Shown here piece after piece: positions 14,401 through 33,582 of a stretch of 34,112 nucleotides of DNA (position 1 is the first letter of the stretch; each line of letters starts with the position of its first letter). Where the stretch lies: contig JAKACA010000018.1 of assembly GCA_021796455.1 (NCBI GenBank), positions 1-34,112 of the forward strand, written 5' to 3'. The DNA comes from Actinomycetes bacterium (lineage in GTDB: Bacteria; Actinomycetota; Acidimicrobiia; Acidimicrobiales; Bog-793). A program made the position numbers and the translations under genes. The notes beneath the pieces are model-generated. The model searched no databases. It was given only the letters and a program-made list of their open reading frames with translations, and was not told the origin of the DNA.

Positions 14401-14503
14401 CCATTGCAAGACCCATAACGAGCCTCGCGACCGGCGAGGTGCTGTACGCGCGGACTTTGGTGTTGCCTCCGAGGGTCGCGATCGTGGTCGCCAATGCGAC
14501 CAC
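11414..14503 (-). CDS. putA: Bifunctional proline dehydrogenase / glutamate-semialdehyde (P5C) dehydrogenase
   Basis: Converts proline to glutamate in two steps, feeding electrons to the membrane quinone pool and NAD. The PRODH barrel (about residues 60-430) shows RFVDVFP, VSIKATAL, VQAYLRDS and RLVKGAYYDTE. The aldehyde dehydrogenase domain (about 550-1029) shows APWNFPLAIP, EMGGKNALIIDTDADLD and FAGQRCSAASR with catalytic Cys825. The linker carries a three-fold 18-bp repeat (RTKGAL units). The frame is open back to 15181 but that part is antisense to phoU. I chose the GTG at 14503 (GAGGG five bases upstream), giving 1029 residues; the ATG at 14416 also has GAGG upstream and would give 1000. 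No DNA-binding N-terminal domain is present, so it is not a self-regulating PutA. Confidence 0.9.
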   Translation of the reverse strand: MVALATTIATLGGNTKVRAYSTSPVARLVMGLAMARPAFQTQLFRFVDVFPAMRDDADTARHLSQYFAGGATPGLLAKAAAAAPVVPGGSRAAARIARREISKMARQFIIGATPAEAVEVLGTLWRGGTAATIDLLGEHTVSHREAAAYAERLDGLLGALLLASESWPVCDLLENDDLGRLPRVAVSIKATALAPDFAPLTAEAGLSTAKSHLRPLLADAARRGVQVWFDLERYETKELTYRLFQELISEPGLEHLHAGIVVQAYLRDSVADLGRLIAFSRGREVPIAIRLVKGAYYDTETVVARSAGWPVPVYSYKAETDLCYEHCIRILHAHHKEVRAAFASHNLRSLAYAIEAARKEGIPDNGYEVQLLYGMAEPVHEAIRRLGLRLRVYAPMGELVPGMAYLVRRLLENTSQESFVRNRFGEGKELPELVARPRLRAESLSAAEPAKAAPRTKGALRTKGALRTKGTSGDGPSVASSRDDYRPEPLAEWFRSEVSEQMGSAVRKISRAGHDTGPSAQRGRADGLLFESGWSFGAERCVPARIGGRSVSTARTIPSLDPADPDRIVATSACCGPDEVAAAVEACQAAFPAWSLRPTSERAGVLFRAAQWLRERRFEVAALEVFEAGKTWADADGDVCEAIDYLEYYGREALVMAQGGRVLSAPGETNTLSYRGRGVTAVIAPWNFPLAIPTGMVSAALVTGNCVVFKPAEQTPATASILVEALECAGLPAGVLSFVPGLGEEIGDGLVTHRDVVGVIFTGSRAVGLHLVEIASITDPEQREVRRVFAEMGGKNALIIDTDADLDVAVPAALQSAFGFAGQRCSAASRIVLPGATAEGFLERFVEAVRALRIGPPMNMGTEMGPLIDEDALRRVRKWQGDASDYGRVLLRREDLPARGYFVGPTVVDFVEPGSPLAREEIFGPVVAILRASDFDHAIEIANMSSYGLTAGVVSRSPSHIAKAAEQLDAGNIYINRPIVGAVVGRQPFGGHRMSGYGQKAGGPDYLYQFVEPRVVTENTMRQGFAPLE
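13095..13148 (-). repeat. Three tandem 18-bp units in the putA linker
   Basis: Plus-strand unit CCCTTGGTTCGCAGGGCG at 13095-13112 and 13113-13130, and a third copy with two changes at 13131-13148. It is in frame and encodes repeated RTKGAL between the two enzymatic domains. The length is a multiple of three, so copy number could vary without breaking the gene. Confidence 0.85.
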
Positions 14504-14643
14504 GCGGCCCTCGTCCGGCTCTGCCACCGCAGCTGGAGCGCGACGACGCGTTGCCACCTCAGCGAAGGCTAACGCGGCGAAAGCTGCTTTCTCCGCCACC
14601 CGAAATACCAAAAGGGCAGGAACCGTTTCCCGCCGGGGAGCAC

Positions 14644-14649
14644 TACGGT
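14644..14649 (+). promoter_or_regulatory. Candidate -10 element of phoU
   Basis: TACGGT followed by six bases and the phoU GTG at 14656. The nearest purine-rich sequence (GGGGAG near 14634) is too far upstream for a normal ribosome binding site. This fits a leaderless start, but no clear -35 is visible. The wider gap 14504-14655 between putA and phoU is otherwise unremarkable. Confidence 0.3.
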
Positions 14650-14655
14650 TGTCCC

Positions 14656-15480
14656 GTGCGCCGTCTCTTCTCTTCGATCGGGACCGGAAACCCCGAGCGC
14701 GATGACGTCGCAAGCCCGAGCGACTCGGCCGCGTCGGCGGAGTCGCCCGCCAACGAGGTCCCCTCGGTTGGTAGCAAGAAGCCGCGGGGACGCCCAGGCA
14801 ACGAGGCGGCCCCCGAGCCGCCGGCAGTAGCTTCCTCCCTGCTGAGCCACCAGCCCGATCTGGTTCAGCAGATCCATCGGCGGATGATCCAGATGTTCGC
14901 GATCGTCGAGGAGGCGATCGCCGGTGCCACCCACGCCCTCTTGACCGGCGACCGCGAGCGGGCCCGGGCTCTCGTCGCCAACGATGTGGCGCTCGACGAC
15001 CTCTACGTCGAGCTGCAGGAGCTTGTCCATGACCGCGTCGTGGCGGGCGGCCTCGCACCTGCCGAGACCACGTGGTTGCTCTCGGTGCTGTCGATGATTC
15101 CCGAGCTCGAGCGAAGCGGCGACCTTGCCGAGCACGTCGCGCAGCGCGCCACCCGGAACCTGCCGGCCGAGATACCCGCACGCATGCGCGGATACATCGA
15201 GCGCATGGGCGAGGTGGCCTGTGACATGTGGAAGATGGCCGCGGACGCCTACGCGGAGCACCTCGCCAGCACCGAGAGGATCGACCTCCTTGACGACGAG
15301 ATGGACGACCTCCACGTGCAGTTCATCGCCGAGATCGCGGAGGGATCTGTCCCGATACCAGTGGCAATCGAGCTCGCGTTGCTCGGTCGGTTCTATGAGC
15401 GACTAGGTGACCACGCCGTCAACCTGACCCGCCACGTGCCCCTGCGACTACGCCAGGGAGCAGCGGGCACGCTCACCTAA
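14656..15480 (+). CDS. phoU: Phosphate-signalling regulator PhoU
   Basis: PhoU links the Pst phosphate transporter to the phosphate-sensing kinase and dampens the phosphate-starvation response. From the GTG at 14656 the protein has 274 residues. About the first 60 are a polar, low-complexity extension (Ser/Ala/Pro/Glu-rich) not usual for PhoU. The rest is the helical PhoU fold, with two related three-helix halves: one around RRMIQMFAIVEEAI and DDLYVELQELVHDR, the second around MGEVACDMWKMAADAY and the metal-binding-type ending FYERLGDHAVNLTRHV. No pst genes are in the window. A SenX3/RegX3-type pair lies 6.3 kb downstream on the same strand, separated from phoU by the type IV secretion cluster. 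Confidence 0.88.
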   Translation: MRRLFSSIGTGNPERDDVASPSDSAASAESPANEVPSVGSKKPRGRPGNEAAPEPPAVASSLLSHQPDLVQQIHRRMIQMFAIVEEAIAGATHALLTGDRERARALVANDVALDDLYVELQELVHDRVVAGGLAPAETTWLLSVLSMIPELERSGDLAEHVAQRATRNLPAEIPARMRGYIERMGEVACDMWKMAADAYAEHLASTERIDLLDDEMDDLHVQFIAEIAEGSVPIPVAIELALLGRFYERLGDHAVNLTRHVPLRLRQGAAGTLT

Positions 15481-15549: not shown

Positions 15550-17211
15550 TCATCTCCTGCTCCTCGCGACTGCTCGCGACTGCTCATAGTAGGGGCGGAG
15601 CCGGACACGGGCAGGGGGCAGGGCTCCGTAGACGACCACCGCCTCACCAAGGCAGAGCTTGCGAAGAGCCGCCGTCGGCGCCACACGCCGGAGCGAAGCA
15701 GTCTGGGTGCTACTCCACCGCCCGTCGTCCCCGACAGTCGTCGACAAGTCGTGGCGCTCGTCCTCTCCGATGAGCGAGCTCATGTGATCGAGAGTCAAGG
15801 GGTCGGCGCTCCCAGGACACAGCACCTTGGCCCGGTGGTTGTTGACGATCGTGGGCCACCGTCTGCCAAAGCGGGCCTCGATCTGGGAGAAGTCCTGCCA
15901 GACAGTGAGGAGCTGGATGCCGTGACCGGCAGCCGTGGAGACGATCGTGTCCAGGTCGGCGATCGGAGCGATGTTGGCGGCTTCGTCGAGCACGACGAGC
16001 AGCGGCGGGTCGAGAGGGTGGCCGAGCCGGCCCGACTGCTCGAATGCGGCATCGATCACCTGCCGCAGGAGAGCCACGAACACGGGCCGGAGGCGCTCCT
16101 GCTCGCGCGCGGGCGCACAGCAGTAGAGCGTTCCGGCTCCGCCGTCCAAAAGGTCGGAGGGTTGGAGGCCCGCGCCCCTCGAGGAAGCTGCGACGGTCGG
16201 ATCACCGAAACCGGCGACGATCGTCTCCGCCGTCGCGAACACCGAGCTCCGCTGACGCTCCTCTCTCCCAAAGCTCGTCCGGGCAGCTCGAACCGCGTCT
16301 GGAACCCCCGCCAGCTCGAGAGCAAGCAGTGGCTCCCTCATCTCCTCCTCGTCGATCCAGCGTACGACATCGGTCATCTCGGCACCTGACGACCGAGCCG
16401 CCAAGAGGAGAGGCGCGAGCAGCTTCTCGGCCGACGCATACCAGAAAGCCGCGTCCTCCATGGCGCTGCCCGCATCTGCTCTGGCGACCGAGCAGAGCGC
16501 GGATGCCAGCCGCCTCGCGCCGGCCCAGGTGCCGGCAGCCGAGAGCGGCGACCAGCTGGTCGGCGTGAGCCCGGTCGCCTCGGTCGGATCGTACAGCTGC
16601 ACGCGGCCGCGGCCTTGTCGATCCTCGAGGGTCACGCGAACAAGGTCAGACTTCACGCTCGTCGCGACGACGGGGCCGGCCCACTCCCTGATCGCCGGGA
16701 TGGCCAGGCCGCTCGTCTTTCCCGACTGGGTCGGACCGACGACAAGGACCGACTGGCTCGCTTCTGCTGCGAGGAGCCTCCGACCATGGGCACCAAGCAC
16801 GATCCGGTTGCCGGGCGGGGCATCCACTTGCAAGTCCCTCACGTCGCTGCGGCTTGCCCAGCCCGGCTCCGGTGCCCTGCGCGCTCTCGTGGCTTGGACC
16901 GCGGAGCTGCCAGCGAGCCCCCTCGCGCTCGGGTGCATCCTGCGGCGACCAAGGACAAGGCCAATCGTGACGACGACCGCGACCACGACCACGACCGATG
17001 CCACGAGCGCGACCGTGCCCAGCAGATGCCCGCCCGCCCGCGCATCACTTTTCAGTCGGCGGATCTCGGCGGCGACGAGGACGACGAGAATTCCCAGGCC
17101 GGCCAGCAGATCGGGGAGCAAGCCGGAGGGCTTGGGCGCTCGTCCGGCCCCACCCGCCGGGGTCCCGCCCCCGCGGCGCCTAGGCGGTGATGCTTTGGCG
17201 GAAACGGGCAT
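15550..17211 (-). CDS. Type IV coupling protein, VirD4/TraG-like ATPase
   Basis: Coupling proteins bring DNA or protein substrates to a type IV secretion channel. From the ATG at 17211 the protein has 553 residues: a Gly/Pro/Arg-rich start, two membrane segments (about 33-49 and 63-88), then the motor domain with Walker A GPTQSGKT (about 159-166), KSDLVRVT, YDPTEATG and Walker B LLVVLDEAAN (about 404-413), then WQDFSQIEARFG and the C-terminal part containing LCPGSADPLT. These are VirD4-family features. It is the last gene of the cluster. The 5' end overlaps the VirB4-like gene by 32 bases; the frame is open upstream to 17298 but those residues are probably not used. Confidence 0.82.
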   Translation of the reverse strand: MPVSAKASPPRRRGGGTPAGGAGRAPKPSGLLPDLLAGLGILVVLVAAEIRRLKSDARAGGHLLGTVALVASVVVVVAVVVTIGLVLGRRRMHPSARGLAGSSAVQATRARRAPEPGWASRSDVRDLQVDAPPGNRIVLGAHGRRLLAAEASQSVLVVGPTQSGKTSGLAIPAIREWAGPVVATSVKSDLVRVTLEDRQGRGRVQLYDPTEATGLTPTSWSPLSAAGTWAGARRLASALCSVARADAGSAMEDAAFWYASAEKLLAPLLLAARSSGAEMTDVVRWIDEEEMREPLLALELAGVPDAVRAARTSFGREERQRSSVFATAETIVAGFGDPTVAASSRGAGLQPSDLLDGGAGTLYCCAPAREQERLRPVFVALLRQVIDAAFEQSGRLGHPLDPPLLVVLDEAANIAPIADLDTIVSTAAGHGIQLLTVWQDFSQIEARFGRRWPTIVNNHRAKVLCPGSADPLTLDHMSSLIGEDERHDLSTTVGDDGRWSSTQTASLRRVAPTAALRKLCLGEAVVVYGALPPARVRLRPYYEQSRAVARSRR

Positions 17212-18496
17212 CGGTGTCGACCATGACGCTCTCGTGCCTGGCAAGAAGGTGCTCGACGAGGTAGGACTGGCCCCCCACCCGCCAGAGAGCCACACCACGG
17301 GGAAGTCTCGGAAGAAACGCGAGATCGCTCACCTCACAGCCGAGCACCCCGGCCAACGGCTCCAGCTCCGAGGCGGGTTGCGCGTAGCAGATGACCGTTT
17401 CGGAGTCGGCCAGCAGGCCCTCGGCGAGGCGCGCCTCCTCGCTCCCGGCGGCGCCACTCGCGCTCAGGTCACTGGCTCGGTGACAGACGGCGATATTGGC
17501 GACGCCGCGAGCCCTCGCGAGCTTCCACGACGACCGGAGGAACCGACCGACTGCGACATCACTCAGGACTGCCCATGCCTCGTCGACGACGAGCAGGGTC
17601 TGAGTCTCTTCCAGGCCCGTCATGGACTGGAGCCACGCAGCCGCGCACACCATCAGGGCGGGCAGGGCTTCGGAGTGGTACACCTGCGAGAGGTCGACGA
17701 TGAGAGCCCTGGGGCCATCGTGCTGAGCTCGTGTCGAGCCAGATGCCAAAGACGGGGCACGTTCTTGGCCCTTGGTCGCGACTGTCGGGGTCGTCTCGCC
17801 GTCGAACATGCCCGCGAGATCGCCGCCGACGAGGCGACGCAGCTCCAGGCCGACGTCACGTCCATCGGTCACGAGAACTTCGGTCGTCACTCCGATTGGC
17901 AGTCCGGCGTCGGGATCGGGCCGGAGAACGGCGTCCACGACGGCGCTGAGCGTCGGTACCGAGCACCTCGCGGCAGCATGGTCGAGCCCGAGATCGAGGG
18001 CAAGATGCTCGCGGGGGGTGAGCCGGCGGTGCAGCGTGGCTTCCGCCAGAGAGCCGAGCAGTACGAGCCGGCGGTGGCGGACGTCCGCGGTGCCACCTCC
18101 TGCCAGGCCGGCGTCGTCGAGAGGATTGATCCGCACGCCCCCGCTCGGCGAGAGCACTATCGGCTCGACGCCGAGCGCCGCCGCGAGCCCGCCATACTCG
18201 CCCTTCGGGTCAAGAACTGCTATCTGCCGCCCAAATGCCGCCTGTCGGTAGAGATAGCTCTTCACAAGGGCGCTCTTGCCCCGCCCGATCTGACCGAGAA
18301 TCGCCACGTTCGGGTTCGTCAGAGCGCCGGAGGCGTAAAGCGCGAACGGGTCGTGCATGAACGGCCCGCCGGCGAGGTCACGACCGACGAACACGCGGCT
18401 GACGCCGAGCGGTCGCGACGCCACGAAGGGGTAGGCAGCACCGAGCTGTGCGGTCGTAGCCTCGTGCGCCGGGAGTCTCGACTTGATCACCTGCAT
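17180..18496 (-). CDS. VirB4/TraC-like conjugation ATPase
   Basis: Powers assembly or operation of the type IV channel. From the ATG at 18496 the protein has 438 residues: Walker A GQIGRGKS at about 68-75, AVLDPKGEYGGLA just after, RINPLDD near 125, and Walker B LLVVDEAWAVL at 301-311. This is the C-terminal motor half of VirB4; the N-terminal half that VirB4 has in proteobacteria is absent, which is usual for actinobacterial elements where an SCO6880-like protein precedes it, as here. The start overlaps the SCO6880-like gene by ten bases. A long open frame upstream of 18496 is a shadow of that gene. Confidence 0.82.
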   Translation of the reverse strand: MQVIKSRLPAHEATTAQLGAAYPFVASRPLGVSRVFVGRDLAGGPFMHDPFALYASGALTNPNVAILGQIGRGKSALVKSYLYRQAAFGRQIAVLDPKGEYGGLAAALGVEPIVLSPSGGVRINPLDDAGLAGGGTADVRHRRLVLLGSLAEATLHRRLTPREHLALDLGLDHAAARCSVPTLSAVVDAVLRPDPDAGLPIGVTTEVLVTDGRDVGLELRRLVGGDLAGMFDGETTPTVATKGQERAPSLASGSTRAQHDGPRALIVDLSQVYHSEALPALMVCAAAWLQSMTGLEETQTLLVVDEAWAVLSDVAVGRFLRSSWKLARARGVANIAVCHRASDLSASGAAGSEEARLAEGLLADSETVICYAQPASELEPLAGVLGCEVSDLAFLPRLPRGVALWRVGGQSYLVEHLLARHESVMVDTDARFRQSITA

Positions 18497-19989
18497 CCCC
18501 GCCCAATTGGCAACGTAGCGCAGAAGCCGTCCTCTTGGGCCCCGAAGAGTCGGTGGAGATCCAGCTGTGCGAGAGCTGCCGCCTGTTCGAGGCGCGCACA
18601 GGCACGCCCCAACTCCTCCGGATCGTCTGCTGTCACAGTGACGTAGCCCGAGTAGTAGTACCCGGCATGGCCCTCGGCCAGCTCCGCCTCGCGTTGCTGC
18701 CGGCTCTCCTGTTCGCGCACAGCCCTCGCCGTCACCGCGAAGCCGTGTCGGTGCCGCATCTCGACGTCCGCTGTGCCCTCCGTACGATCTCGCTCGGCTC
18801 TCCGGACCGCCTTTTGGGCCGCCACGGGCGCCATCGTCACCGACACGATGCGCCGTAGCCCCGGCTCGAGAAGCATCGGCAGCAAGAAACCCCCGCCCAC
18901 CTGCGAACGTGGCCACTCGGCGATCCAGTAGCTCGCATGCCATGAAGCGTCCGTACGAAGTCGCCACCACCCGTCGTCGACACTTACCGGCCACGGCCAA
19001 GCCGTGGGCAGGGTCGACGAGGTCACTGCAAAGCTCCGGCGGACTAGACCTGCAAGCAACCGGGGCGAGAGCGCTTGGCCCGGTGAGAGGCCTGCACTAC
19101 AAAGCCTTTCCTCCAGGCTCGACAGCTGCTCGCGCAGCATCGAGGCGGTGCCCTGCGAGCTGTTCCTCAGCGAGGCGTTGCGACGCAACGTCACAGCGAC
19201 GTAGACCTCGTGAGCCCATAGATGCGGCGACGCCTCCTCGATGAGCTGCGCGTAGTGATCTCCAGGTGGGCCCGTCCCGTCCGCAGCCAGGGTTCCGTCG
19301 AGCCACGCGGGATAGATGCTCGACAGCCACTGCAGCCGGTGCAGCCCGGATGTCTCTCTCGCCATTGCTGCGAGCACTCCTGACCATGCACCGATCCGTT
19401 CGCTTCTCTCGGCCTCCCCAAGAAGGGCAAACCCCGTGCCGCCGACAGGCATCACTGCAGTCCAGGTGGACGAGGAGCGGTCGTTGATCGCACCGATGCC
19501 GGCTGGCTCGCCTGCGGTGTCCGGTCCACCTCCACCTCGTGCCGAGTGGGAAGGGCCGGGCAGACCTCTCTTGGCAGAGCCGGGTGCAGGTGACGCCTTG
19601 CGATCTCGCGACTCGGCCAGCTCTACCAGCTCGAGCTGGCCGAGCGACCCCTTGGGGCGCCTCCCGGGCGGGGCAAGCGCGAGGTCGCGCCGCCCCACGC
19701 GGCCGCGCCGACCCGCGAGGCCGCGAAGGGCAAAGCGCGCCACGACCGGCGCCCACTGTTCGAGCGTTCGACCTCCAACGGGCCACGACGCGACGGCCAC
19801 ACCTGCCGCCACCGCGGAGAAGGCCAGAATCCCACCGGCGGCTCCGCCCAGTGACCGCAGCAGCCCGACAGCAATAATCAGCGCGGTTGCGACGCACGCG
19901 ATCTGCCCGGCTCGCCACCCGGCGATGAGGCCCCGGGTGCTACGCGGACCGAGACGGTACCGAGCGGCTGCCGAATCAGAGGGTGCCAT
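18487..19989 (-). CDS. SCO6880-like conjugation protein with PrgI-type membrane N-terminus
   Basis: A 500-residue protein. The N-terminus (YRLGPRSTRGLIAGWRAGQI) followed by two close membrane segments (about 30-48 and 50-68) matches the actinobacterial SCO6880 family, whose start resembles PrgI of Gram-positive type IV systems. The remainder is soluble and contains VDDGWWRTD-like text (here DGWWRLRTDASWHASYWI) and the conserved YYSGYVTVTADDPEEL near the end. It is thought to act with the VirB4-like ATPase, which follows with a ten-base overlap. The ATG at 19989 has AAAGGAG five bases upstream, the best ribosome binding site in the cluster. A region at about residues 105-150 is Gly/Arg/Pro-rich. 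Confidence 0.75.
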   Translation of the reverse strand: MAPSDSAAARYRLGPRSTRGLIAGWRAGQIACVATALIIAVGLLRSLGGAAGGILAFSAVAAGVAVASWPVGGRTLEQWAPVVARFALRGLAGRRGRVGRRDLALAPPGRRPKGSLGQLELVELAESRDRKASPAPGSAKRGLPGPSHSARGGGGPDTAGEPAGIGAINDRSSSTWTAVMPVGGTGFALLGEAERSERIGAWSGVLAAMARETSGLHRLQWLSSIYPAWLDGTLAADGTGPPGDHYAQLIEEASPHLWAHEVYVAVTLRRNASLRNSSQGTASMLREQLSSLEERLCSAGLSPGQALSPRLLAGLVRRSFAVTSSTLPTAWPWPVSVDDGWWRLRTDASWHASYWIAEWPRSQVGGGFLLPMLLEPGLRRIVSVTMAPVAAQKAVRRAERDRTEGTADVEMRHRHGFAVTARAVREQESRQQREAELAEGHAGYYYSGYVTVTADDPEELGRACARLEQAAALAQLDLHRLFGAQEDGFCATLPIGRGCR

Positions 19990-21247
19990 TGCTGCTCCTT
20001 TGTGATCTCTCGACGATGTAGCTCGCCCAACCGCTCTCCCCGCGCTTGGCCGAAGATCGGCCCTGTGGCGCGGCCGCTCCTGGACCGGCGCCTCCCGCAG
20101 CACCGGCGCCTCCGTTCCCTGCTGATGAACCGCCTGCGGTAGCTCCCGCCGAAGCGGCCGTCGCAGCAGCCCCCGCCGAAGCAGCAGCCCCCGCCGAAGC
20201 AGCCGTCGCAGCAGCCCCCGCCAGGAGGCCACCCACGTCCGCCGAGGTCGAGCCCGGCACAGCTCCCGGCTTCGAGCCGAGGACACCGTCACCGAGCGCT
20301 CGCGCGCCGTCCGAGGCCAGCGACCATGCCTGATGCCTTACGGCCTGTGCTGGGCGCACACCTTCGAGGTGGCTCACGGCCCCGCTCTCGAGCATCGGGA
20401 TGAGCCGGAAGAGGGCAAAGGGGGCAAAGGCTGTCAGACCGAGAAGAGCCACCCCTTCGACGATGCTCGATACACCGCCGGCACCGGCTGCCAGGGCCCC
20501 ACCGGCTAGGGCGAGCGCAGCTGCCATCACAAGCTTCATGAGCACGAGCCCTGCAAGAGTCTCACCGAGACGGCGTGCCCAATGCGACGTCGCAGGCCAG
20601 ACCAGCCCCGCAAGGGCGAGCGGGAGGAACATCGCCGCCACCGCCACCGCGGCAGATCTGACTGCGAGCTCGACCCAGAGCAGGAAGCTCACCAGCGCGA
20701 CCACTACGACAAGGATCAATTCTCCAAAGCCGTAGACGCCCGGAGCACCAGGCGCAAGGGCGGCTTCGATGTTGGCGAAAGCGTGAGCGGCTGAGCTTCC
20801 CCCGGCGCTTAAGAGCGCAACGCTCGCCTGATCGGTGAAGCTGAGACCGAGCGTCACGAGCTCGGTTACCACACCAGTCAAAAGGAGCGCCATCGGGAGG
20901 CGGAGCAAGGCAGTTCGCAAGAGCCCGCTCGGATCCTGGCGCGCAACCGACTGGATGACGCCGAGCGCGAGGAGCGGCAGGGCCACGGCTGCACCGATGA
21001 GGACCATGACCTGGTACTCGGCTGAGAAGGCACTGCCCGCCAGCACTGGCTCGCTCGTGGCTGACAGCGCTGCCCACGCCTCGTGGAGGAGCCAGACCGT
21101 ACCCTTTGCCACCCACTGCGAGAACGTCGAGAACGCGCCCGAGATCAAGTCCTCTGCAAGCTGCTTCAGCAATCCCGTCGGGCTGGGGAGCAGCGACGCG
21201 GGGGCGACCGGAGCGCCGCCCACGAGCGGGCCGACATAGAGCGTCAT
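19976..21247 (-). CDS. VirB6/TrbL-like polytopic membrane protein
   Basis: A 423-residue membrane protein with six or so hydrophobic segments between about residues 70 and 300 (for example VMVLIGAAVALPLLALGVI, ILVVVVALVSFLLWVEL, LVLMKLVMAAALALAGG), matching VirB6/TrbL channel proteins in size and pattern. The C-terminal 110 residues are soluble and Ala/Gly/Ser-rich, encoded by an in-frame repeat (20151-20222). The ATG at 21247 is chosen over the GTG nine bases upstream because GAGGGG then lies eight bases before it. It overlaps the SCO6880-like gene by 14 bases. The assignment rests on topology and neighbours more than on sequence motifs. Confidence 0.72.
   Translation of the reverse strand: MTLYVGPLVGGAPVAPASLLPSPTGLLKQLAEDLISGAFSTFSQWVAKGTVWLLHEAWAALSATSEPVLAGSAFSAEYQVMVLIGAAVALPLLALGVIQSVARQDPSGLLRTALLRLPMALLLTGVVTELVTLGLSFTDQASVALLSAGGSSAAHAFANIEAALAPGAPGVYGFGELILVVVVALVSFLLWVELAVRSAAVAVAAMFLPLALAGLVWPATSHWARRLGETLAGLVLMKLVMAAALALAGGALAAGAGGVSSIVEGVALLGLTAFAPFALFRLIPMLESGAVSHLEGVRPAQAVRHQAWSLASDGARALGDGVLGSKPGAVPGSTSADVGGLLAGAAATAASAGAAASAGAAATAASAGATAGGSSAGNGGAGAAGGAGPGAAAPQGRSSAKRGESGWASYIVERSQRSSNGTL
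20151..20222 (-). repeat. In-frame 27/18/27-bp repeat in the VirB6-like tail
   Basis: Plus-strand copies: a 27-bp unit at 20151-20177, an 18-bp shortened unit at 20178-20195 lacking the CCGTCGCAG core, and a nearly identical 27-bp unit at 20196-20222. They encode the GAAATAASA-type run. All units are multiples of three. Confidence 0.8.
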
Positions 21248-21299
21248 CGCTGCCACCCCTCGCCGACCACCGGAGCCATCGAGACAACCTGGGCGGCAC

Positions 21300-21611
21300 T
21301 CAGAAGAGCTTGCCCTGGCTGAAGAGGAAATTGATGACCGTAGGGGCTGCCCCGATCACGAGCGCTGCCATCGCTGACACGATCACTGCGCGTCGGCCAG
21401 CGCTCGAGTACTGGTAGTTGTTCGTGTGGCTCCCGAGCGCCCACGCAGCCGCGCCGAGCACGACGCCGACGAGGGCCGCCATGAGGGCCCACCAGCCGAT
21501 GCCGTTCGCGAGCGTCTCCAGAGGAGTCGTGCCAGGCACGGCGCTTGAAGTCGGGTCAAAGGGAACGATGGGGTTGCCCGACAGTAGCCAGTGGCTGATG
21601 AACCGGTCCAC
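21300..21611 (-). CDS. Small two-segment membrane protein, VirB2/TrbC-like (DUF6112 type)
   Basis: A 103-residue protein with two hydrophobic segments (about 38-58 and 77-95) and an N-terminal region of about 35 residues, first gene of the type IV cluster. Size, topology and position match the small VirB2/TrbC-like proteins (DUF6112 in my recollection) that open actinobacterial conjugation clusters; a pilin role is inferred, not shown. No classic signal peptidase site is obvious. The start is the GTG at 21611, with GGAGG six bases upstream. It ends 52 bases before the VirB6-like start. The promoter probably lies in the AT-richer gap shared with the sensor kinase. Confidence 0.65.
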   Translation of the reverse strand: MDRFISHWLLSGNPIVPFDPTSSAVPGTTPLETLANGIGWWALMAALVGVVLGAAAWALGSHTNNYQYSSAGRRAVIVSAMAALVIGAAPTVINFLFSQGKLF

Positions 21612-21673
21612 GACCGACCTCCGATGTTCGAGCGCTGAAGCGCATCAGGCGACAAAGGGCCGGGGAGGCCGAG

Positions 21674-21713
21674 ACTGTTTCCAACAGTACCATGATATGT
21701 CATTGTGTGACAA
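21674..21713. promoter_or_regulatory. Two inverted repeats in the type IV cluster / sensor kinase gap
   Basis: In the 160-bp divergent gap (21612-21771), ACTGTT-TCC-AACAGT (21674-21688) is a perfect six-base-arm inverted repeat, and TTGT-GTG-ACAA (21703-21713) is a second. They flank unusually AT-rich DNA (CATGATATGTCAT and, further right, CAGTATATATCAAAA). Candidate operators; no known regulator recognised. No repeated GTTCA-type phosphate boxes seen. Confidence 0.35.
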
Positions 21714-21771
21714 GTGTTTTCAGTATATATCAAAACGCAGACTTCTCCCAGCATGCTGACAAGCTGGAGTA

Positions 21772-23028
21772 GTGGCCACCGTGCTGCACGTGAGCGTGCC
21801 CGAAGTCGTGATCACAGCCGTGGCCGTCGCACTCGCGCTCTGGCTGGTCTTCATCATCGGCGACCGTCGCGGCACCCGAGCGCTGCGCCAGCGCATCGCG
21901 GCGCTGACTTCTCGCCTAGGAGCCGATCCGCCGGCTCGCGAGCCGAAGAGCGTCGAGGAGGGTCTCGCCTACCTGGAGCGGGCCACAGACAGCGCCGTCG
22001 AGGCCGTGCACGAGGCAAGCTCGGAGACGATCCGGATCCGGCGAGCGCTCGACGCCTTACCCCAAGCCGTGTTGATCCGCGACGAGCACGGAGAGACCGT
22101 GTTCTCCAATCAGAACGCGCTCGCGCTCATGAGCGGCCGCCACGGTGACGCCTTGGCGGCGCAAGCGGTCGAGGAGTTGCTCGAATCGACACCCATCGGC
22201 GCGACGGAGGAGCGGACTCTCGAGCTCTACGGTCCACCTCGGCGAACGCTCGTGGTGCGGACGGAGAGCATCGACAGCGGGTCGCGAGTGCTCGGGGTCA
22301 TGGCCGTCATAGATGACGTTTCGGAGCGACGGCGCCTCGAGGGCATCCGCCGGGACTTCGTCGCTAACGTCAGCCACGAGCTCAAGACACCGATGGGAGC
22401 GCTCGGGCTGCTCGCTGAGACTCTCCTGGCAGAGACCGAACCACAAGTGGCACAGCGGTTAGCTCAGCGCATCCACACCGAGGCCTTCCGCATCAGCAGG
22501 GTGATAGACGACCTTCTCGATCTCTCTAGGATCGAGAACGAGGAGTCCCCTCCCCGCGAGCCGGTGCTCGTAAACCTCGTGATGGCCGAAGCTGCCGAGC
22601 GCGTGCGGGCCCCGGCTGAGCAGCTCCATATCCAGGTCGTCCTGGACGAGCCCGATCCGCCGGTCGCGGTACTGGGCGATCGGCGCCAACTCACCTCGGC
22701 TATCTACAACCTGCTCGAGAACGCGGTGAAGTTCTCCAACATGGGCTCACAGGTGGTCTGCAGCGGGCGGGCCGAGAATGACGAGGTCCTCATCACTGTC
22801 ACCGACCGCGGAGCCGGCATCCCCACGCGAGATCTGGAGCGTATCTTCGAGCGCTTCTACCGTGTTGACCAGGGCCGCAGCCGTTCGACGGGCGGTACCG
22901 GCCTCGGCCTGGCTATCGTTCGCCACGTAGCGGCCAACCACCGAGGCAGCGTGCACGTGGAGTCACGCGAAGGCGAGGGCTCGACGTTTACGTTCCGCCT
23001 GCCCCTCCAGCCGAGGAGCGACGCTTGA
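21772..23028 (+). CDS. senX3: Sensor histidine kinase, SenX3/PhoR type
   Basis: Membrane sensor kinase of a two-component system, probably phosphate-related given phoU in the neighbourhood. The 418-residue protein has one N-terminal membrane segment (about 9-29), a coiled polar stretch, a PAS-like domain (about 90-185), the dimerisation/phosphoacceptor motif FVANVSHELKTPMGAL with His202, and the ATPase domain with NLLENAVKF, DRGAGI, IFERFYRVD and GTGLGLAIV. A single N-terminal membrane segment plus PAS is the SenX3-like layout. The start used is the GTG at 21772 with GGAG too close; GTG 21781 is possible. It overlaps the response regulator gene by four bases (TTGA). Confidence 0.85.
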   Translation: MATVLHVSVPEVVITAVAVALALWLVFIIGDRRGTRALRQRIAALTSRLGADPPAREPKSVEEGLAYLERATDSAVEAVHEASSETIRIRRALDALPQAVLIRDEHGETVFSNQNALALMSGRHGDALAAQAVEELLESTPIGATEERTLELYGPPRRTLVVRTESIDSGSRVLGVMAVIDDVSERRRLEGIRRDFVANVSHELKTPMGALGLLAETLLAETEPQVAQRLAQRIHTEAFRISRVIDDLLDLSRIENEESPPREPVLVNLVMAEAAERVRAPAEQLHIQVVLDEPDPPVAVLGDRRQLTSAIYNLLENAVKFSNMGSQVVCSGRAENDEVLITVTDRGAGIPTRDLERIFERFYRVDQGRSRSTGGTGLGLAIVRHVAANHRGSVHVESREGEGSTFTFRLPLQPRSDA

Positions 23029-23873
23029 CAGTCAGGACCGCAGCACCGACAAGAGTCCTCCTCGTCGAGGATGCAGAGTCGTTCGTGGACGCACTTGTGG
23101 TGGGATTGGAGAGAGAGGGCTTCGCGATAACCGTCGCTCGCGACGGGATCGAAGCGCTCGAGCTGTTCGACCCCGAGAGCACCGACCTCGTGCTTCTCGA
23201 CGTGATGCTGCCTCGAATGTCCGGGATCGACGTGTGCCGCATCATCCGTGCCCGATCGGACGTCCCGATCATCATGGTGACGGCCAAGTCGACCGAGCTC
23301 GACACGGTCGTCGGACTAGAGGTCGGTGCAGACGACTACGTGGCCAAGCCGTACCGGCTCCGTGAGCTCGTCTCACGTATGCGGGCCGTTCTCCGGCGAC
23401 AGTCCAAGCAGTCACCCAGCTCGGACCTCGCCGTCACAGGGACGACGAGATCGGAAGAAGGCACGGAAGCCGGCGAAGCCCAGAACCTGTACGCGACGAG
23501 CGACACCCGCTCGGCTCAACAGGTTCCGGTCGGACAGCGGCGCCCGCCAGTCGCCCACCTCGAGGAGATCCTCGAGGTGGGCGACGTGAGACTCGACCTC
23601 TCGCGCCACGAATGCATCGTGCGTGACCACGAGGTGAGGCTCCCGCTGAAGGAGTGGGAGCTCATCGAGATCCTCCTCGCGAATGCTGGCAGGGTGGTGA
23701 CTCGCGATTCCCTCATAGACCGCGTCTGGGGTCTCGACTACGTCGGCGACACCAAGACCCTCGACGTGCATATAAAGCGGCTCCGCTCGCGGATCGAGCT
23801 TGACCCCTCCCATCCCGTCCTCATAACGACTATCCGGGGCGTCGGTTACCGCTTCGAGTCGCCGCGGCGCTGA
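23025..23873 (+). CDS. regX3: OmpR/PhoB-family response regulator with long linker (RegX3 type)
   Basis: DNA-binding partner of the kinase. Receiver domain at residues 8-125 with acidic pocket Glu15-Asp16, phosphoacceptor Asp59 (LLDVMLP), Thr86 and Lys108. Winged-helix domain at about 186-280 with PLKEWELIEILLANAGRVVTR-type text and the ending VLITTIRGVGYRFE. The linker (about 127-185, nearly 60 residues) is far longer than the usual 10-20 and is Ser/Thr/Glu/Gln-rich. Its last part is encoded by a 36-bp inverted repeat. The start is TTG at 23025, overlapping the kinase stop, so translation is probably coupled. Target genes are not visible here. Confidence 0.86.
   Translation: MTVRTAAPTRVLLVEDAESFVDALVVGLEREGFAITVARDGIEALELFDPESTDLVLLDVMLPRMSGIDVCRIIRARSDVPIIMVTAKSTELDTVVGLEVGADDYVAKPYRLRELVSRMRAVLRRQSKQSPSSDLAVTGTTRSEEGTEAGEAQNLYATSDTRSAQQVPVGQRRPPVAHLEEILEVGDVRLDLSRHECIVRDHEVRLPLKEWELIEILLANAGRVVTRDSLIDRVWGLDYVGDTKTLDVHIKRLRSRIELDPSHPVLITTIRGVGYRFESPRR
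23550..23585. repeat. 36-bp inverted repeat inside the response regulator gene
   Basis: GTCGCCCACCTCGAGGA (23550-23566), two bases GA, then its exact reverse complement TCCTCGAGGTGGGCGAC (23569-23585). Seventeen paired bases with a two-base centre. It is in frame and encodes VAHLEEILEVGD at the end of the long linker. It could form a hairpin in mRNA or a cruciform in DNA. Confidence 0.95.
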
Positions 23874-30205: not shown

Positions 30206-30278
30206 GCCCCCATCGTCTAGCGGCCTAGGACGCCACCCTTTCAAGGTGGTAGCACGGGTTCGAATCCCGTTGGGGGTG
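30206..30278 (+). tRNA. tRNA-Glu (anticodon TTC)
   Basis: Acceptor arm GCCCCCA pairs with TGGGGGT (first pair G-T, as is usual for actinobacterial tRNA-Glu), discriminator G at 30278. The anticodon loop CTTTCAA between CCACC and GGTGG gives anticodon TTC. The T arm is ACGGG TTCGAAT CCCGT. Length 73; CCA is not encoded. It forms the left edge of the arsenic region, and a degenerate copy of its 3' part lies at 33583-33627. Confidence 0.95.
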
Positions 30279-30407
30279 CTCGCATAAGTCCAGCTCACAT
30301 GGCACATTGGTTGCCAGCTTGGTGGCATGCCCGACCTCGGGCGACAATCCCGTCGACGCCCGCGTCGCCTGGTTGATTGGCTGGTTGATTGGCTGGTTGC
30401 TTTGGGG

Positions 30408-30534
30408 GCGGCAATCCACACGAGCCGCTCCGGGTGGTCCTGGGCCGCTCCGGGTGGTCCTGGGCCGCTCCGGGTGGTCCTGGGTGGCCCGGCGGGACAA
30501 ATACGACCCGTTCACCCACCCTTGGGCGGTGGGC
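30408..30534 (+). repeat. Compound direct repeat, left copy (A)
   Basis: Starts GCGGCAATCCAC, continues through three 20-bp units (30425-30484) and ends in a 50-bp core (30485-30534) that is 46/50 identical to 33260-33309. The core contains GGCGGGACAAATACGACCC and a hairpin CCCACC-7-GGTGGG (30515-30533). Together with 30279-30407, which also holds two TGGTTGATTGGC units near 30370-30393, it fills the 366 bp between the tRNA and arsR; I see no gene here. Confidence 0.85.
30425..30484 (+). repeat. Three exact tandem 20-bp units
   Basis: CCGCTCCGGGTGGTCCTGGG at 30425-30444, 30445-30464 and 30465-30484, identical in all three. The right-hand compound repeat carries a single unit (33240-33259, 18/20 identical). 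There are no spacers between units, so this is not a CRISPR array. Confidence 0.95.
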
Positions 30535-30644
30535 AGGCCGCGGGCGCCGCACCATCTACGAGACCGTGCCCCCCGACCGACAGGAGGCAGGCCCGCCTCG
30601 GCGGGACCTCCGAACCGCCCGTCGTCATCGGCCTGCCTCCCCGG

Positions 30645-30992
30645 TCACGCTCCGCCGAGCAGCCGCCGGAGGAGGGCGAGCCGATCAGGGACGACTGTCC
30701 ACCACATCCACTTGCCACGCCGCTCGCCGACGATGAGGCCCGCCTCGGCGAGCACCCGCGTGTGGTGGGAGATCGTTGGCTGGCTTTTCCCGAGGGGCTT
30801 TTCGAGGTGGCAACTGCAAATCTCGCCCCTCGCGGCGACGAGCGAGAGAAGGCGCAGGCGGACGGGGTCCCCGAGGGCGGCAAGGACGGGTGCCAACACC
30901 GCGGCCTCGGTCGGCGAGAGCGGAGCATCTGTGAGGGGGCTGCAGCACAGTTCGTCAAGGCGGTCCAATGGTTGAGCAAGCCGAGCGGGCAT
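30645..30992 (-). CDS. arsR: Arsenic-responsive ArsR-family repressor
   Basis: Winged-helix repressor that leaves DNA on binding As(III). From the ATG at 30992 it has 115 residues. Cys16-Cys17 (ELCCSPL) near the N-terminus and Cys59/Cys61 in GEICSCHLEKPLGKSQPTIS give the Cys set of the actinobacterial (Corynebacterium CgArsR-like) type, in which an N-terminal pair acts with a Cys in the DNA-binding region of the partner. The recognition helix is SQPTISHHTRVL. The start is chosen because GGAGAG lies five bases upstream; the frame is open to 31535, but that is antisense to the arsI-like gene. It is divergent from the arsI-like/acr3/arsC genes and probably represses both sides. Confidence 0.9.
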   Translation of the reverse strand: MPARLAQPLDRLDELCCSPLTDAPLSPTEAAVLAPVLAALGDPVRLRLLSLVAARGEICSCHLEKPLGKSQPTISHHTRVLAEAGLIVGERRGKWMWWTVVPDRLALLRRLLGGA

Positions 30993-31005
30993 TGAGACTC
31001 TCCGA

Positions 31006-31040
31006 TTGTCATGGGTCAATATGTGGATGATAGTCTCATC
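31006..31040 (+). promoter_or_regulatory. ars promoter with overlapping inverted repeat
   Basis: TTGTCA (31006-31011), 17 bases, GATAGT (31029-31034) form a plausible promoter for the arsI-like operon. GATGA-TAGTC-TCATC (31026-31040) is a perfect inverted repeat lying over the -10 element, a good place for an ArsR operator. The whole divergent gap is 30993-31068. Confidence 0.45.
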
Positions 31041-31068
31041 GACAGCCATCAATGTGCAGGAGCCACCA

Positions 31069-31440
31069 ATGACACGCGTGCATCTCGCCCTCAATGCCTC
31101 GGACCCGGGCACAGCGATCGTCCCGTACTGCAAGCTGTGCGCCGCCGAACCGGCGAAATTCCGTCCGGCACATGCCGACTTCGCCATCACCGAGCCATTC
31201 CTGAAGCTCGCGCTCATCGAGCACGAGTCCTCGACCCGGGGAGATGGCGTTCTCCGTGCCCTCAAACACCTCGGCCTCGAGGTCGAGACGACCCGGGAGG
31301 TTGGTTCTGCGACGAGGCGCCTCGCCGACGCCCCGGTCGTTGCCGGGCCTTGCGGCGACGGCCGGTGCCGTGAAGCCTCGTCCACCGAGGCAACAGACGA
31401 TAGCCCCGAAGCGTCGAGAACAACCGCCTCGTGCTGCTGA
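31069..31440 (+). CDS. ArsI/CadI-like (VOC family) protein lacking the second half, with Cys-rich tail
   Basis: ArsI-type enzymes cleave the C-As bond of trivalent organoarsenicals; CadI is a cadmium-induced relative. The N-terminal 85 residues match this family: RVHLALNASD, KLCAAEPAKFRP, DFAITEPFLKLALIE and HLGLEVETT with the conserved His67. The expected second module, with a TCC-type thiol pair and a DPDG-WEVY-type ending, is missing. Instead the protein runs into PCGDGRCREASS and ends TTASCC, like the Cys-rich tail of full-length relatives. At 123 residues it is shorter than the usual 140-180. The ATG at 31069 has GCAGGAG six bases upstream. It may be an internally deleted arsI, a metal-binding protein, or decaying. 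Confidence 0.7.
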   Translation: MTRVHLALNASDPGTAIVPYCKLCAAEPAKFRPAHADFAITEPFLKLALIEHESSTRGDGVLRALKHLGLEVETTREVGSATRRLADAPVVAGPCGDGRCREASSTEATDDSPEASRTTASCC

Positions 31441-31471
31441 CCGCTCAGCCAGCCCGCACCGGAGATGTGCC

Positions 31472-32593
31472 GTGAGCGACATCGTTTCCGAGCGCCCGCG
31501 GAGCGGGGAGACCCCGGACGCACCGGTGATCGCACGGCTGTCGTTCCTCGACCGGTTCCTGCCTGTGTGGATCATCCTGGCGATGGCCGTCGGCATCGGC
31601 CTCGGGCGGACCATCCCGAGCCTGAACAAGCACCTAAACGCCATCCAGGTGACCTCGGGGACACCGCTGCCGATCTTCATCGGTCTGCTGGTGATGATGT
31701 ACCCGGTGCTCGCGAAGGTTCGCTACGACCAGCTCGGCTCGGTCACCAAGGACCGACGGATGCTGGTCTCGTCTCTGGTGCTCAATTGGGTGGTCGGTCC
31801 CGCGGTCATGTTCACGCTGGCCTGGCTGTTGTTGCCCGACCTGCCCGCGTATCGGACCGGGCTCATCATCGTCGGCCTGGCCCGCTGCATAGCCATGGTG
31901 CTCATCTGGAACGACCTGTCGGGCGGAGACCGGGAGGCAGCCGCGGTGCTCGTGGCCATCAACTCGCTGTTCCAGGTGGTTGCCTTCGCGCTCCTCGGCT
32001 ACTTCTACCTCAAAGTGCTGCCTGGGTGGCTCGGTCTCAGCACGGTCGGCCTGCACCTGTCGGTCTGGCGGATCGCCGAGACCGTGGCCATCTTCCTCGG
32101 CGTCCCTCTTGTGGCCGGCTTCCTCACCCGCACCGTCGGCGAACGAACCCGGGGTCGGGAATGGTATGAGACCAAGCTGTTACCCCACCTCGGCCCGTTC
32201 GCCCTCTATGGGTTGCTCTATACGATCATCATCCTTTTTGCCCTCCAAGGCCACACCATCATCTCTCGGCCCGCCGACGTGGCCCGCATCACTCTGCCTC
32301 TGTTGGGGTACTTCGCCGTCATGTGGTTCGGGTCATTCGCTCTCGGCGAGGCAATCGGCCTTCCCTACAAGCGGACCGCGACCCTGGCGTTCACCGCTGC
32401 AGGCAACAACTTCGAGCTGGCTATTGCGGTTGCCATCGGCGTGTTCGGAGTCACGAGCGGTGAAGCTCTCGCGGGCGTCGTCGGCCCTCTCATCGAGGTT
32501 CCCGTCCTCGTCACTCTGGTGTATGTGTCCCTGTGGGCTCGAAGGCGCTACTACCCGTCGCCAGAGCACACCGGACGGGAAGGAACACCGTGA
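31472..32593 (+). CDS. acr3: ACR3-family arsenite efflux permease
   Basis: Membrane carrier that expels arsenite using the proton gradient. The 373-residue protein has ten hydrophobic segments. The family signature GLARCIAMVLIWNDLSGGD, with the Cys essential in characterised ACR3 proteins, and AAGNNFELAIAVAIGVFG are both present. The GTG at 31472 is chosen because CGGAG lies seven bases upstream and the protein then starts with a polar stretch before SFLDRFLPVW. It follows the arsI-like gene by 31 bases and overlaps arsC (GTGA at 32590-32593), so it is the middle gene of a three-gene operon facing arsR. Confidence 0.93.
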   Translation: MSDIVSERPRSGETPDAPVIARLSFLDRFLPVWIILAMAVGIGLGRTIPSLNKHLNAIQVTSGTPLPIFIGLLVMMYPVLAKVRYDQLGSVTKDRRMLVSSLVLNWVVGPAVMFTLAWLLLPDLPAYRTGLIIVGLARCIAMVLIWNDLSGGDREAAAVLVAINSLFQVVAFALLGYFYLKVLPGWLGLSTVGLHLSVWRIAETVAIFLGVPLVAGFLTRTVGERTRGREWYETKLLPHLGPFALYGLLYTIIILFALQGHTIISRPADVARITLPLLGYFAVMWFGSFALGEAIGLPYKRTATLAFTAAGNNFELAIAVAIGVFGVTSGEALAGVVGPLIEVPVLVTLVYVSLWARRRYYPSPEHTGREGTP

Positions 32594-33003
32594 CCGATAC
32601 CCCCGTCGTGTTGTTCCTCTGTGTCCACAACGCCGGTCGCAGCCTTGCCGCCCGAGTGCTGCTTGATCACTACGCACAAGGCCGGGTCGATGTCCGCTCA
32701 GCCGGGTCCGAACCCGCCGACCAGCTCGACCCGTCCGTCCTCGCCATCCTTCGCGAACGGGGCTTGGATCCGGCACAAGAGTTTCCCAAGCCCCTCACTG
32801 ACGAGGCGGCCAGAGCTGCCGACGTCATCGTCACCATGGGCTGCGGCGACGCGTGCCCTTACTATCCCGGCAAGCGCTACCTCGACTGGGACCTCGAAGA
32901 CCCCGCCGGCAAACCGGTCGACGCTGTCCGGCCCATCGTCGACGCGATCGACCGCCGAGTCCGCGCCTTACTCACTGAGCTCACCGATCCTGCGAAGCGG
33001 TGA
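32590..33003 (+). CDS. arsC: Arsenate reductase, low-molecular-weight phosphatase type
   Basis: Reduces arsenate to arsenite for export by ACR3. The 137-residue protein has the P-loop CVHNAGRS (CX5R) at about residues 11-18, the MGCGDACPYYPGKRYLDWDLEDP segment, here cited by its Cys-rich start MGCGDACP, and the catalytic Asp in DWDLEDP. In actinobacteria this subgroup commonly uses mycothiol and mycoredoxin; which reductant is used here is not readable. The GTG at 32590 overlaps the acr3 stop. Last gene of the arsenic operon. The right compound repeat begins 222 bases after its stop. Confidence 0.92.
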   Translation: MTDTPVVLFLCVHNAGRSLAARVLLDHYAQGRVDVRSAGSEPADQLDPSVLAILRERGLDPAQEFPKPLTDEAARAADVIVTMGCGDACPYYPGKRYLDWDLEDPAGKPVDAVRPIVDAIDRRVRALLTELTDPAKR

Positions 33004-33224
33004 TTGTCCACGTTGACGCCGACTTTGGGACGAGAATTCGAGCCAAGCAACGCGGCGGGTGCTCTCAGGATGACCCATGCCGGTACTTCGTGCTCGATGC
33101 CCTTTGCGGTGGCCCCGAACGTGCGAGTTCCGCAGCGTTCCGCCAACCGACTTACCGCTGCAAGCATTCGCCAGCGCTGCGCACGACCCGGCGATGTACC
33201 GAGAGCCCAGTTCAGAGCCCTGGA

Positions 33225-33309
33225 GCGGCGATCCACGGGCCGCTCCGGCTGGCCCTGGGTGGTCCGGCGGGACAAATACGACCCCTTCACCCACCCAGGG
33301 GCGGTGGGC
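33225..33309 (+). repeat. Compound direct repeat, right copy (B)
   Basis: Starts GCGGCGATCCAC, has one 20-bp unit (33240-33259, 18/20 identical to copy A units) and the 50-bp core (33260-33309, 46/50 identical to 30485-30534). The hairpin CCCACC-7-GGTGGG is kept (33290-33308) although the loop sequence differs. It has the same orientation as copy A. Confidence 0.85.
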
Positions 33310-33414
33310 GGGGGCCGCCGGGGTAGGCGGGGGCCGCCGAGGTGGGCGGACCACCGCCGCCGGGACCACCGCCGCCGGGGCCGGGACCACCGGCCGCCGG
33401 GACCACCGGCCGCC
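33307..33414 (+). repeat. GC-only low-complexity tandem tract
   Basis: Two GGCGGGGGCCGCCG-type units (about 33307-33339) are followed by repeated GGACCACCGCCGCC and GGACCACCGGCCGCC units (about 33348-33414). It directly follows copy B. No coding sense seen. Confidence 0.7.
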
Positions 33415-33582
33415 AAGAGCATTGTCCGCATGGCCGAAGCCTCGATCCGACCGGTGGCGTGACCAGAGCGTGACCCAACGACCGGTCACGAGGAGTATTT
33501 AGTCGTAACTGACGGTCAGACGACACGCCCTCTTCCCAGGGTGTTTGTCACTTACGCGCAGGTCCGCAAACAGTTTGGCTCG

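Follow-up and report, generated by a model that had tools for sequence, protein, structure and literature searches.

The window analyzed here is a stretch of 34,112 nucleotides from an Acidimicrobiales genome (Actinomycetes bacterium, assembly GCA_021796455.1), and it makes up an entire contig (JAKACA010000018.1, our C85) of a 3.57-Mb assembly in 334 contigs. It carries five type IV secretion genes, flanked by phoU and by a phosphate-type two-component pair, that form one minus-strand unit and encode VirD4 (here D4-A), VirB4, SCO6880-family, VirB6-like, and VirB2-like (DUF6112) proteins. We lean toward the view that this cluster is the first locus of a DNA translocator that derives from conjugation, is fixed in the chromosome at two loci, and is inherited vertically, with a second locus elsewhere in the same genome that encodes a relaxase and another VirD4-type ATPase (D4-B). 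Both loci keep their chromosomal places throughout a large group of bacteria from soils and acid waters, which suggests that the system is not a mobile one. No description of such a two-locus system was found in the titles and abstract openings of open-license PMC literature.

Comparison with 118 related genomes placed the cluster at the same site in 36, those in which the junction beside the kinase or phoU/pstB could be read. The kinase gene adjoins the VirB2 gene in 25 of 43 loci examined; among the remaining 18, a contig end interrupts 14, 2 are different loci in the window's own genome, and 2 (L053 and L066) have a flank without the kinase. The kinase is likewise the neighbor in genome G114 and in six of six further loci, which were picked since kinase or VirB4 matches had already located the cluster there. 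The other side of the cluster is frequently pstB-phoU. In seven of nine cluster-free genomes, phoU lies immediately 5' of the kinase on the same strand; of the other two, pstB precedes the kinase in G057 and the flank is rearranged in G043. A putative Acidimicrobium ferrooxidans genome consisting of a single contig (G065) has the same arrangement as the window, and a binning artifact was ruled out because this arrangement recurs in many independent assemblies, the single-contig genome included.

A tree of the kinase and response regulator (41 rows, with one low-scoring kinase row, L070 of G071, left out) puts cluster genomes on one side and the nine empty-site genomes on the other, except for G080, in which kinase identity is only 45%. 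Because the tree separates the two groups in this way, the simplest history is a single gain (or a single loss) with vertical inheritance thereafter. The cluster genes are under purifying selection, with ratios of nonsynonymous to synonymous substitution (dN/dS) like those of housekeeping genes: in genus g3 they range from 0.10 to 0.23, compared to 0.11 to 0.19 for BCKDH and CtaD and 0.24 to 0.35 for phoU; the values taken in support of the two-locus reading span 0.10 to 0.27. The hallmarks of an integrative and conjugative element or a plasmid (integrase, attachment sites, variable location) were not found; the place is fixed across families, and sister junctions are empty. A preliminary description of the window, made from its letters and open reading frames, had recognized the five-gene unit and its flanks, which open reading frames and family profiles confirm, and had suggested looking in relatives for a phoU-kinase junction without the cluster, which exists in the seven genomes above. 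Its proposal that the system is domesticated is borne out by the shared place, the selection, and the empty junctions of sister lineages.

The same description reported a cluster without a relaxase and advised a genome-wide search for one. While none is present in the window, the search recovered a TrwC-type relaxase at a separate, fixed, almost strictly co-occurring locus. On contig C205, a pafBC-like gene and an FTR1-like open reading frame are followed by a relaxase of 902 amino acids (PF08751, 186 bits), a convergent gene for the 471-amino-acid VirD4-like D4-B, which has no transmembrane segments, and hup beyond. PafBC serves in DNA damage control. The order pafBC, relaxase, D4-B was found again in family f1 and elsewhere in other families, and hup and PIG-L frequently lie farther on; these pafBC matches are those among the matches listed, and adjacency to the relaxase may be undercounted among weak matches. 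In the putative A. ferrooxidans genome, about 8 kb separate the relaxase from pafBC and about 28 kb separate it from D4-B.

The relaxase matches TrwC and TraI structures in the PDB at 1e-54, and residues 1 to 300 of its model superimpose on TrwC with a Z score of 29 and a root mean square deviation (rmsd) of 2.1. The catalytic tyrosine and three-histidine site of the MOBF family are present in this TrwC fold, and Y14, K90, S93, H153, R157, D160, H162, H164, and H166, all in the nicking domain, are invariant in 29 aligned sequences. Among 36 query-anchored rows, a few of which do not reach the tyrosine, Gln replaces the first His of HLHTH in G006 and YH replaces YY in G071. Beyond residue 300, the model resembles RecD-type helicases (Z, 10 to 12) and aligns along TraI, and the helicase P-loop was found in 0 of 35 open reading frames (34 plus that of the putative A. 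ferrooxidans). It is present in five of five other MOBF relaxases of the order, controls that were hand-picked as long open reading frames away from pafBC. In every aligned row, D4-B retains the lysine of Walker A and the acids of Walker B. A transmembrane segment precedes the region of homology in 1 of 14 D4-B sequences, a count that covers segments ahead of the ATPase region, and D4-B usually is without a membrane anchor.

Both loci are present in 51 of the 118 genomes, only locus 1 in 9, only locus 2 in 1, and neither in 57; locus 1 is scored here loosely (60 genomes), with identity limits set after the matches were seen. Fisher tests of this association take no account of phylogeny and carry no weight as proof. 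Locus 2 is present in 33 of the 36 genomes with a readable locus 1. The three without it are 68 to 86% complete, and one of them, G034, has a relaxase fragment beside D4-B. The sole genome with locus 2 only is G012, and its assembly likewise yielded no kinase. Evolutionary distances agree between loci: D4-B correlates with D4-A at r = 0.80 (n = 28) and with VirB4 at 0.82 (n = 26), values as high as that between D4-A and VirB4 within locus 1 (0.755; n = 34). Genus g16 has lost D4-A, with pstB directly after VirB4, and retains VirB2, VirB6, and VirB4; in the same comparison, the SCO6880 protein was matched in one of three genomes. In G015 and G032, the single VirD4 gene that this genus still has adjoins the relaxase; in G026 it lies at a contig edge. 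As a separate observation, no phoU was seen at the cluster site in this genus (L177, L178, L179).

The five cluster genes are tightly packed. Neighboring VirB6, SCO6880, VirB4, and VirD4 genes overlap by about 10 to 32 bases with refined starts, and a 43-base gap separates VirB2 from VirB6. D4-A (15550 to 17211, minus strand, about 553 amino acids, with a possible start at 17298) matches PF02534 at 3e-28 and PF12696 at 7e-19 and is a VirD4-like coupling ATPase. Its N terminus has hydrophobic helices, and a transmembrane segment is found there in 9 of 10 relatives; its Walker A lysine and Walker B motif are retained in 39 of 39 aligned rows. The VirB4 gene (17180 to 18496, minus strand) encodes about 438 amino acids without a transmembrane segment and matches AAA_10 at 6.5e-08; its frame is open up to 19000, with homology only from near 18496. 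The GKS and DEAW motifs of VirB4 are retained in 34 of 34 aligned rows. The SCO6880-family gene (18487 to 19989, minus strand) scores 218 bits against NF042935, whose cutoff is 60. For the last two subunits, profile scores are weak, and topology and position agree with the family assignment: the polytopic VirB6/TrbL-like protein (19976 to 21256, minus strand) has hydrophobic segments, a conserved position, and a weak TrbL_4 match (E = 0.03), and the small VirB2/pilin-like protein (21300 to 21611, minus strand) has two transmembrane segments and matches PF19607 at 1e-07 and T4SS_pilin at E = 0.14. No relaxase, integrase, or hydrolase was recognized among the cluster open reading frames read. 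G+C content is 68 to 70% across the cluster (16001 to 21000), compared to 61 to 69% elsewhere in the window.

Structural modeling offers an explanation for the SCO6880 protein. Its AlphaFold2 model, built with 33 homologues, has a predicted local distance difference test score of 82 and two hydrophobic helices at the N terminus. From residue 109, it superimposes on residues 13 to 384 of the VirB4 protein TrwK of R388 (Z, 24 to 25; rmsd, 3.3 to 3.4 over 321 to 327 residues), and Foldseek matched it to VirB4 at 9e-12. The protein therefore models as a VirB3-like transmembrane hairpin, a label that rests on topology, joined to a VirB4 N-terminal domain. VirB4 profiles match the adjacent gene product only from the middle of the profile onward. 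With the N-terminal half of VirB4 in one gene and only the C-terminal ATPase half in the next, VirB4 is split in two here, and contig C275 of this genome encodes the SCO6880 and VirB4 halves fused in a single 908-amino-acid protein. That fusion belongs to a further type IV cluster (L057, G000:C275, 4305 to 14925); the genome also has an additional SCO6880 copy at the edge of contig C103, and contig C274 contains a VirB4 fragment. A family until now named after a gene number gains a concrete role from the model, that of VirB3 together with the first half of VirB4.

We infer joint action of the two loci, along with the substrate, the direction of transport, and control by the neighboring two-component and PafBC regulators. 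In the mechanism we propose, the MOBF/TrwC-type relaxase would nick a chromosomal site and remain attached to the 5' end via Tyr14. D4-B, proposed as the strand driver because the helicase half of the relaxase lacks a P-loop, would drive or hand over the nicked strand, passing it to D4-A and the split VirB4 channel. This channel would consist of membrane-anchored D4-A, the split VirB3-B4N/VirB4C motor, VirB6, and VirB2. The likeliest use would be to pass single strands of the chromosome from one sister cell to another, in a built-in system akin to Hfr (high frequency of recombination) transfer in a lineage without ComEC.

Several known systems come close to the proposed one. The nicking domain of the locus 2 relaxase shares its fold and active-site residues with TrwC of R388 and TraI of F, but its helicase half has no P-loop, and its place on the chromosome is fixed and shared with a second, usually unanchored VirD4. 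VirB4, VirD4, VirB6, and VirB2-like parts are those of monoderm conjugative mating-pair formation systems with SCO6880/CD1110-type VirB4 and VirD4, and plasmid relatives reach up to 43% identity over VirB4; in contrast to these, the window cluster has no adjacent relaxase, hydrolase, or integrase, is inherited vertically, and has a split VirB4. Chromosomal DNA export led by a relaxase, the use proposed here, is also the activity of the gonococcal genetic island (GGI) of Neisseria, which is an acquired island. According to the portion of the literature available, the GGI resides in a competent host (PMC12857230), whereas the cluster clade lacks ComEC. The chromosomal type IV system of Patescibacteria is likewise fixed, monoderm type, and widely distributed, but the available part of its description presents genomes mostly without a relaxase (PMC12102498).

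ComEC (PF03772) was found in 49 of the 118 genomes and in 10 of 14 controls. Its distribution is lopsided: it is present in 47 of 58 genomes without the cluster, in 2 of 60 with a loosely scored locus 1 (G099 and G112, neither of which was shown to have the cluster next to the kinase), and in none of the 36 genomes with a readable locus 1. This contrast is suggestive only, because the split was probably one event. Uptake of the Helicobacter type via a type IV system requires ComEC, and such a role is less likely here because ComEC is absent. DprA is retained in 39 of 58 ComEC-less cluster genomes versus 47 of 49 ComEC genomes.

Several observations weigh against a two-locus translocator. DprA would be expected where incoming DNA is single stranded, but 19 of those 58 genomes lack it, the putative A. 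ferrooxidans among them. By the criteria applied, 9 of 60 locus 1 genomes have no locus 2, and relaxase distances do not correlate with those of BCKDH (r = 0.06; n = 10). Both the co-occurrence of the loci and the ComEC contrast track essentially one split of the kinase tree, so phylogeny alone could yield them. Loss of the P-loop could signify that DNA transfer by the relaxase has been lost. No VirB8-like or VirB1-type gene was recognized in the cluster, the search being confined to the cluster and not genome wide, and no inverted repeat like an origin of transfer was found in the two spacers beside this genome's own relaxase; spacers by the relaxase in relatives have weak palindromes in two of three.

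The main rival is a role inside the cell, in which the machine has been domesticated for movement or segregation of the cell's own chromosome or for envelope or developmental functions and the relaxase acts internally. Its model is cmdABCDEF (SCO4126 to SCO4131) of Streptomyces coelicolor, a fixed chromosomal set with VirB4-like (CmdB), SCO6880-like (CmdC), and SCO6881-like membrane (CmdD) genes and a role in segregation and sporulation. In the part of that report available, SCO6878, SCO6880, and SCO6881 resemble CmdB, CmdC, and CmdD, and cmd deletion disturbs chromosome segregation with SLP2 plasmid transfer unaffected, showing that a cluster of this kind can serve the cell itself (PMC2782261). 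Homologous chromosomal VirB4, SCO6880, and VirB6-type genes are present in our cluster, and in three of three Streptomyces-like genomes the cmd-like genes (L146 to L151) lie 14 to 16 kb from pstB. Nearness to phosphate genes may therefore predate the order, and this nearness and the service of Cmd to its own cell are what bring a segregation-like role to the fore. The pafBC gene beside the relaxase also hints at DNA damage control. Still, we consider such a role unlikely, as single-strand processing is indicated by the conservation of the nicking residues and by the presence, next to the relaxase, of another coupling ATPase. In addition, identity to the Streptomyces Cmd-type proteins is just 24 to 35%, cmd does not lie between phoU and the kinase, and the operon, in the portion of its description available, contains no relaxase and has no relaxase partner (PMC2782261).

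Improbable, in our estimation, is a protein-secreting type IV system for effectors or antibacterial toxins, with the relaxase locus an unrelated domesticated remnant that shares only phylogeny. The missing P-loop would fit such a remnant, and the Patescibacteria, as far as the available text describes them, provide chromosomal systems mostly without a relaxase (PMC12102498). Yet the relaxase keeps its nicking residues, genus g16 lost D4-A while retaining the VirD4 at the relaxase locus, and no effector-like gene conserved with the cluster was seen in the loci read, for which the queries were window genes only.

Less probable again is ordinary mobilization, in which plasmids or integrative elements would bring relaxases of their own and use the resident channel in trans. 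MOBF relaxases that retain their P-loops also occur in the order, and additional type IV clusters exist in this genome, but the latter carry their own VirB4 and VirD4 genes, and the fixed second locus would go unexplained. A strictly co-occurring relaxase elsewhere had been anticipated as the mark of such a system; almost strict co-occurrence was indeed seen, but ordinary mobilization does not follow, because both loci are without integration genes and stay in place and the helicase half of the relaxase lacks a P-loop. The decayed core of an integrative element stranded at this site, also considered at the outset and in keeping with a compact five-gene set without an integrase, is hardly credible and was rejected by synteny and selection, given a site shared by many families, intact catalytic motifs, and housekeeping-like dN/dS.

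Around the cluster, phoU (14494 to 15480, plus strand; PF01895, 2e-23) forms the left flank of the insertion point. The SenX3/PhoR-type histidine kinase on the right (21772 to 23028, plus strand; HisKA and HATPase), divergent from the cluster, scores 273 to 275 bits against PnpS and PhoR profiles, under their equivalog cutoffs, and is followed by an OmpR/PhoB-type response regulator (23025 to 23873, plus strand; PF00072 and PF00486). ABC genes are also present on the kinase and regulator side. The divergent spacer between the kinase and VirB2 (21612 to 21771) contains a TTTCA-N5-TATCA repeat, one mismatch from TTTCA-N5-TTTCA and a possible operator. First spotted by eye and tested afterwards by shuffling, the repeat has a P value of 0.010 in the window spacer and of 0.01 or less in 7 of 28 spacers (that of the window and 27 homologous ones), in which tandem TTTCA repeats with 10-base spacing always lie toward the kinase; genera g3, g4, g15, and g16 gave no such signal. 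The phosphate box TTCA-N7-TTCA is absent from 27 of 28 kinase-VirB2 spacers. Farther along (30206 to 33500), an arsenic-type set of ArsR-like, ACR3-like, and ArsC-like open reading frames, named by eye, lies next to tRNA-Glu and is bordered by a 76-base direct repeat, 91% identical (30462 to 30537 and 33237 to 33312), and is possibly a small island.

Returning to the two-locus translocator, its broadest form is one we advance only tentatively: a large Acidimicrobiales clade without ComEC may possess a built-in, inherited conjugation apparatus, in which a helicase-inactive relaxase nicks the chromosome and D4-B pumps, to move DNA from cell to cell without any mobile element. If this is true, conjugation would not always belong to mobile elements but could be built into the cell as a permanent trait, perhaps in place of the absent transformation, and the existence of a cultured member with a complete genome, the putative A. 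ferrooxidans, makes the question testable.

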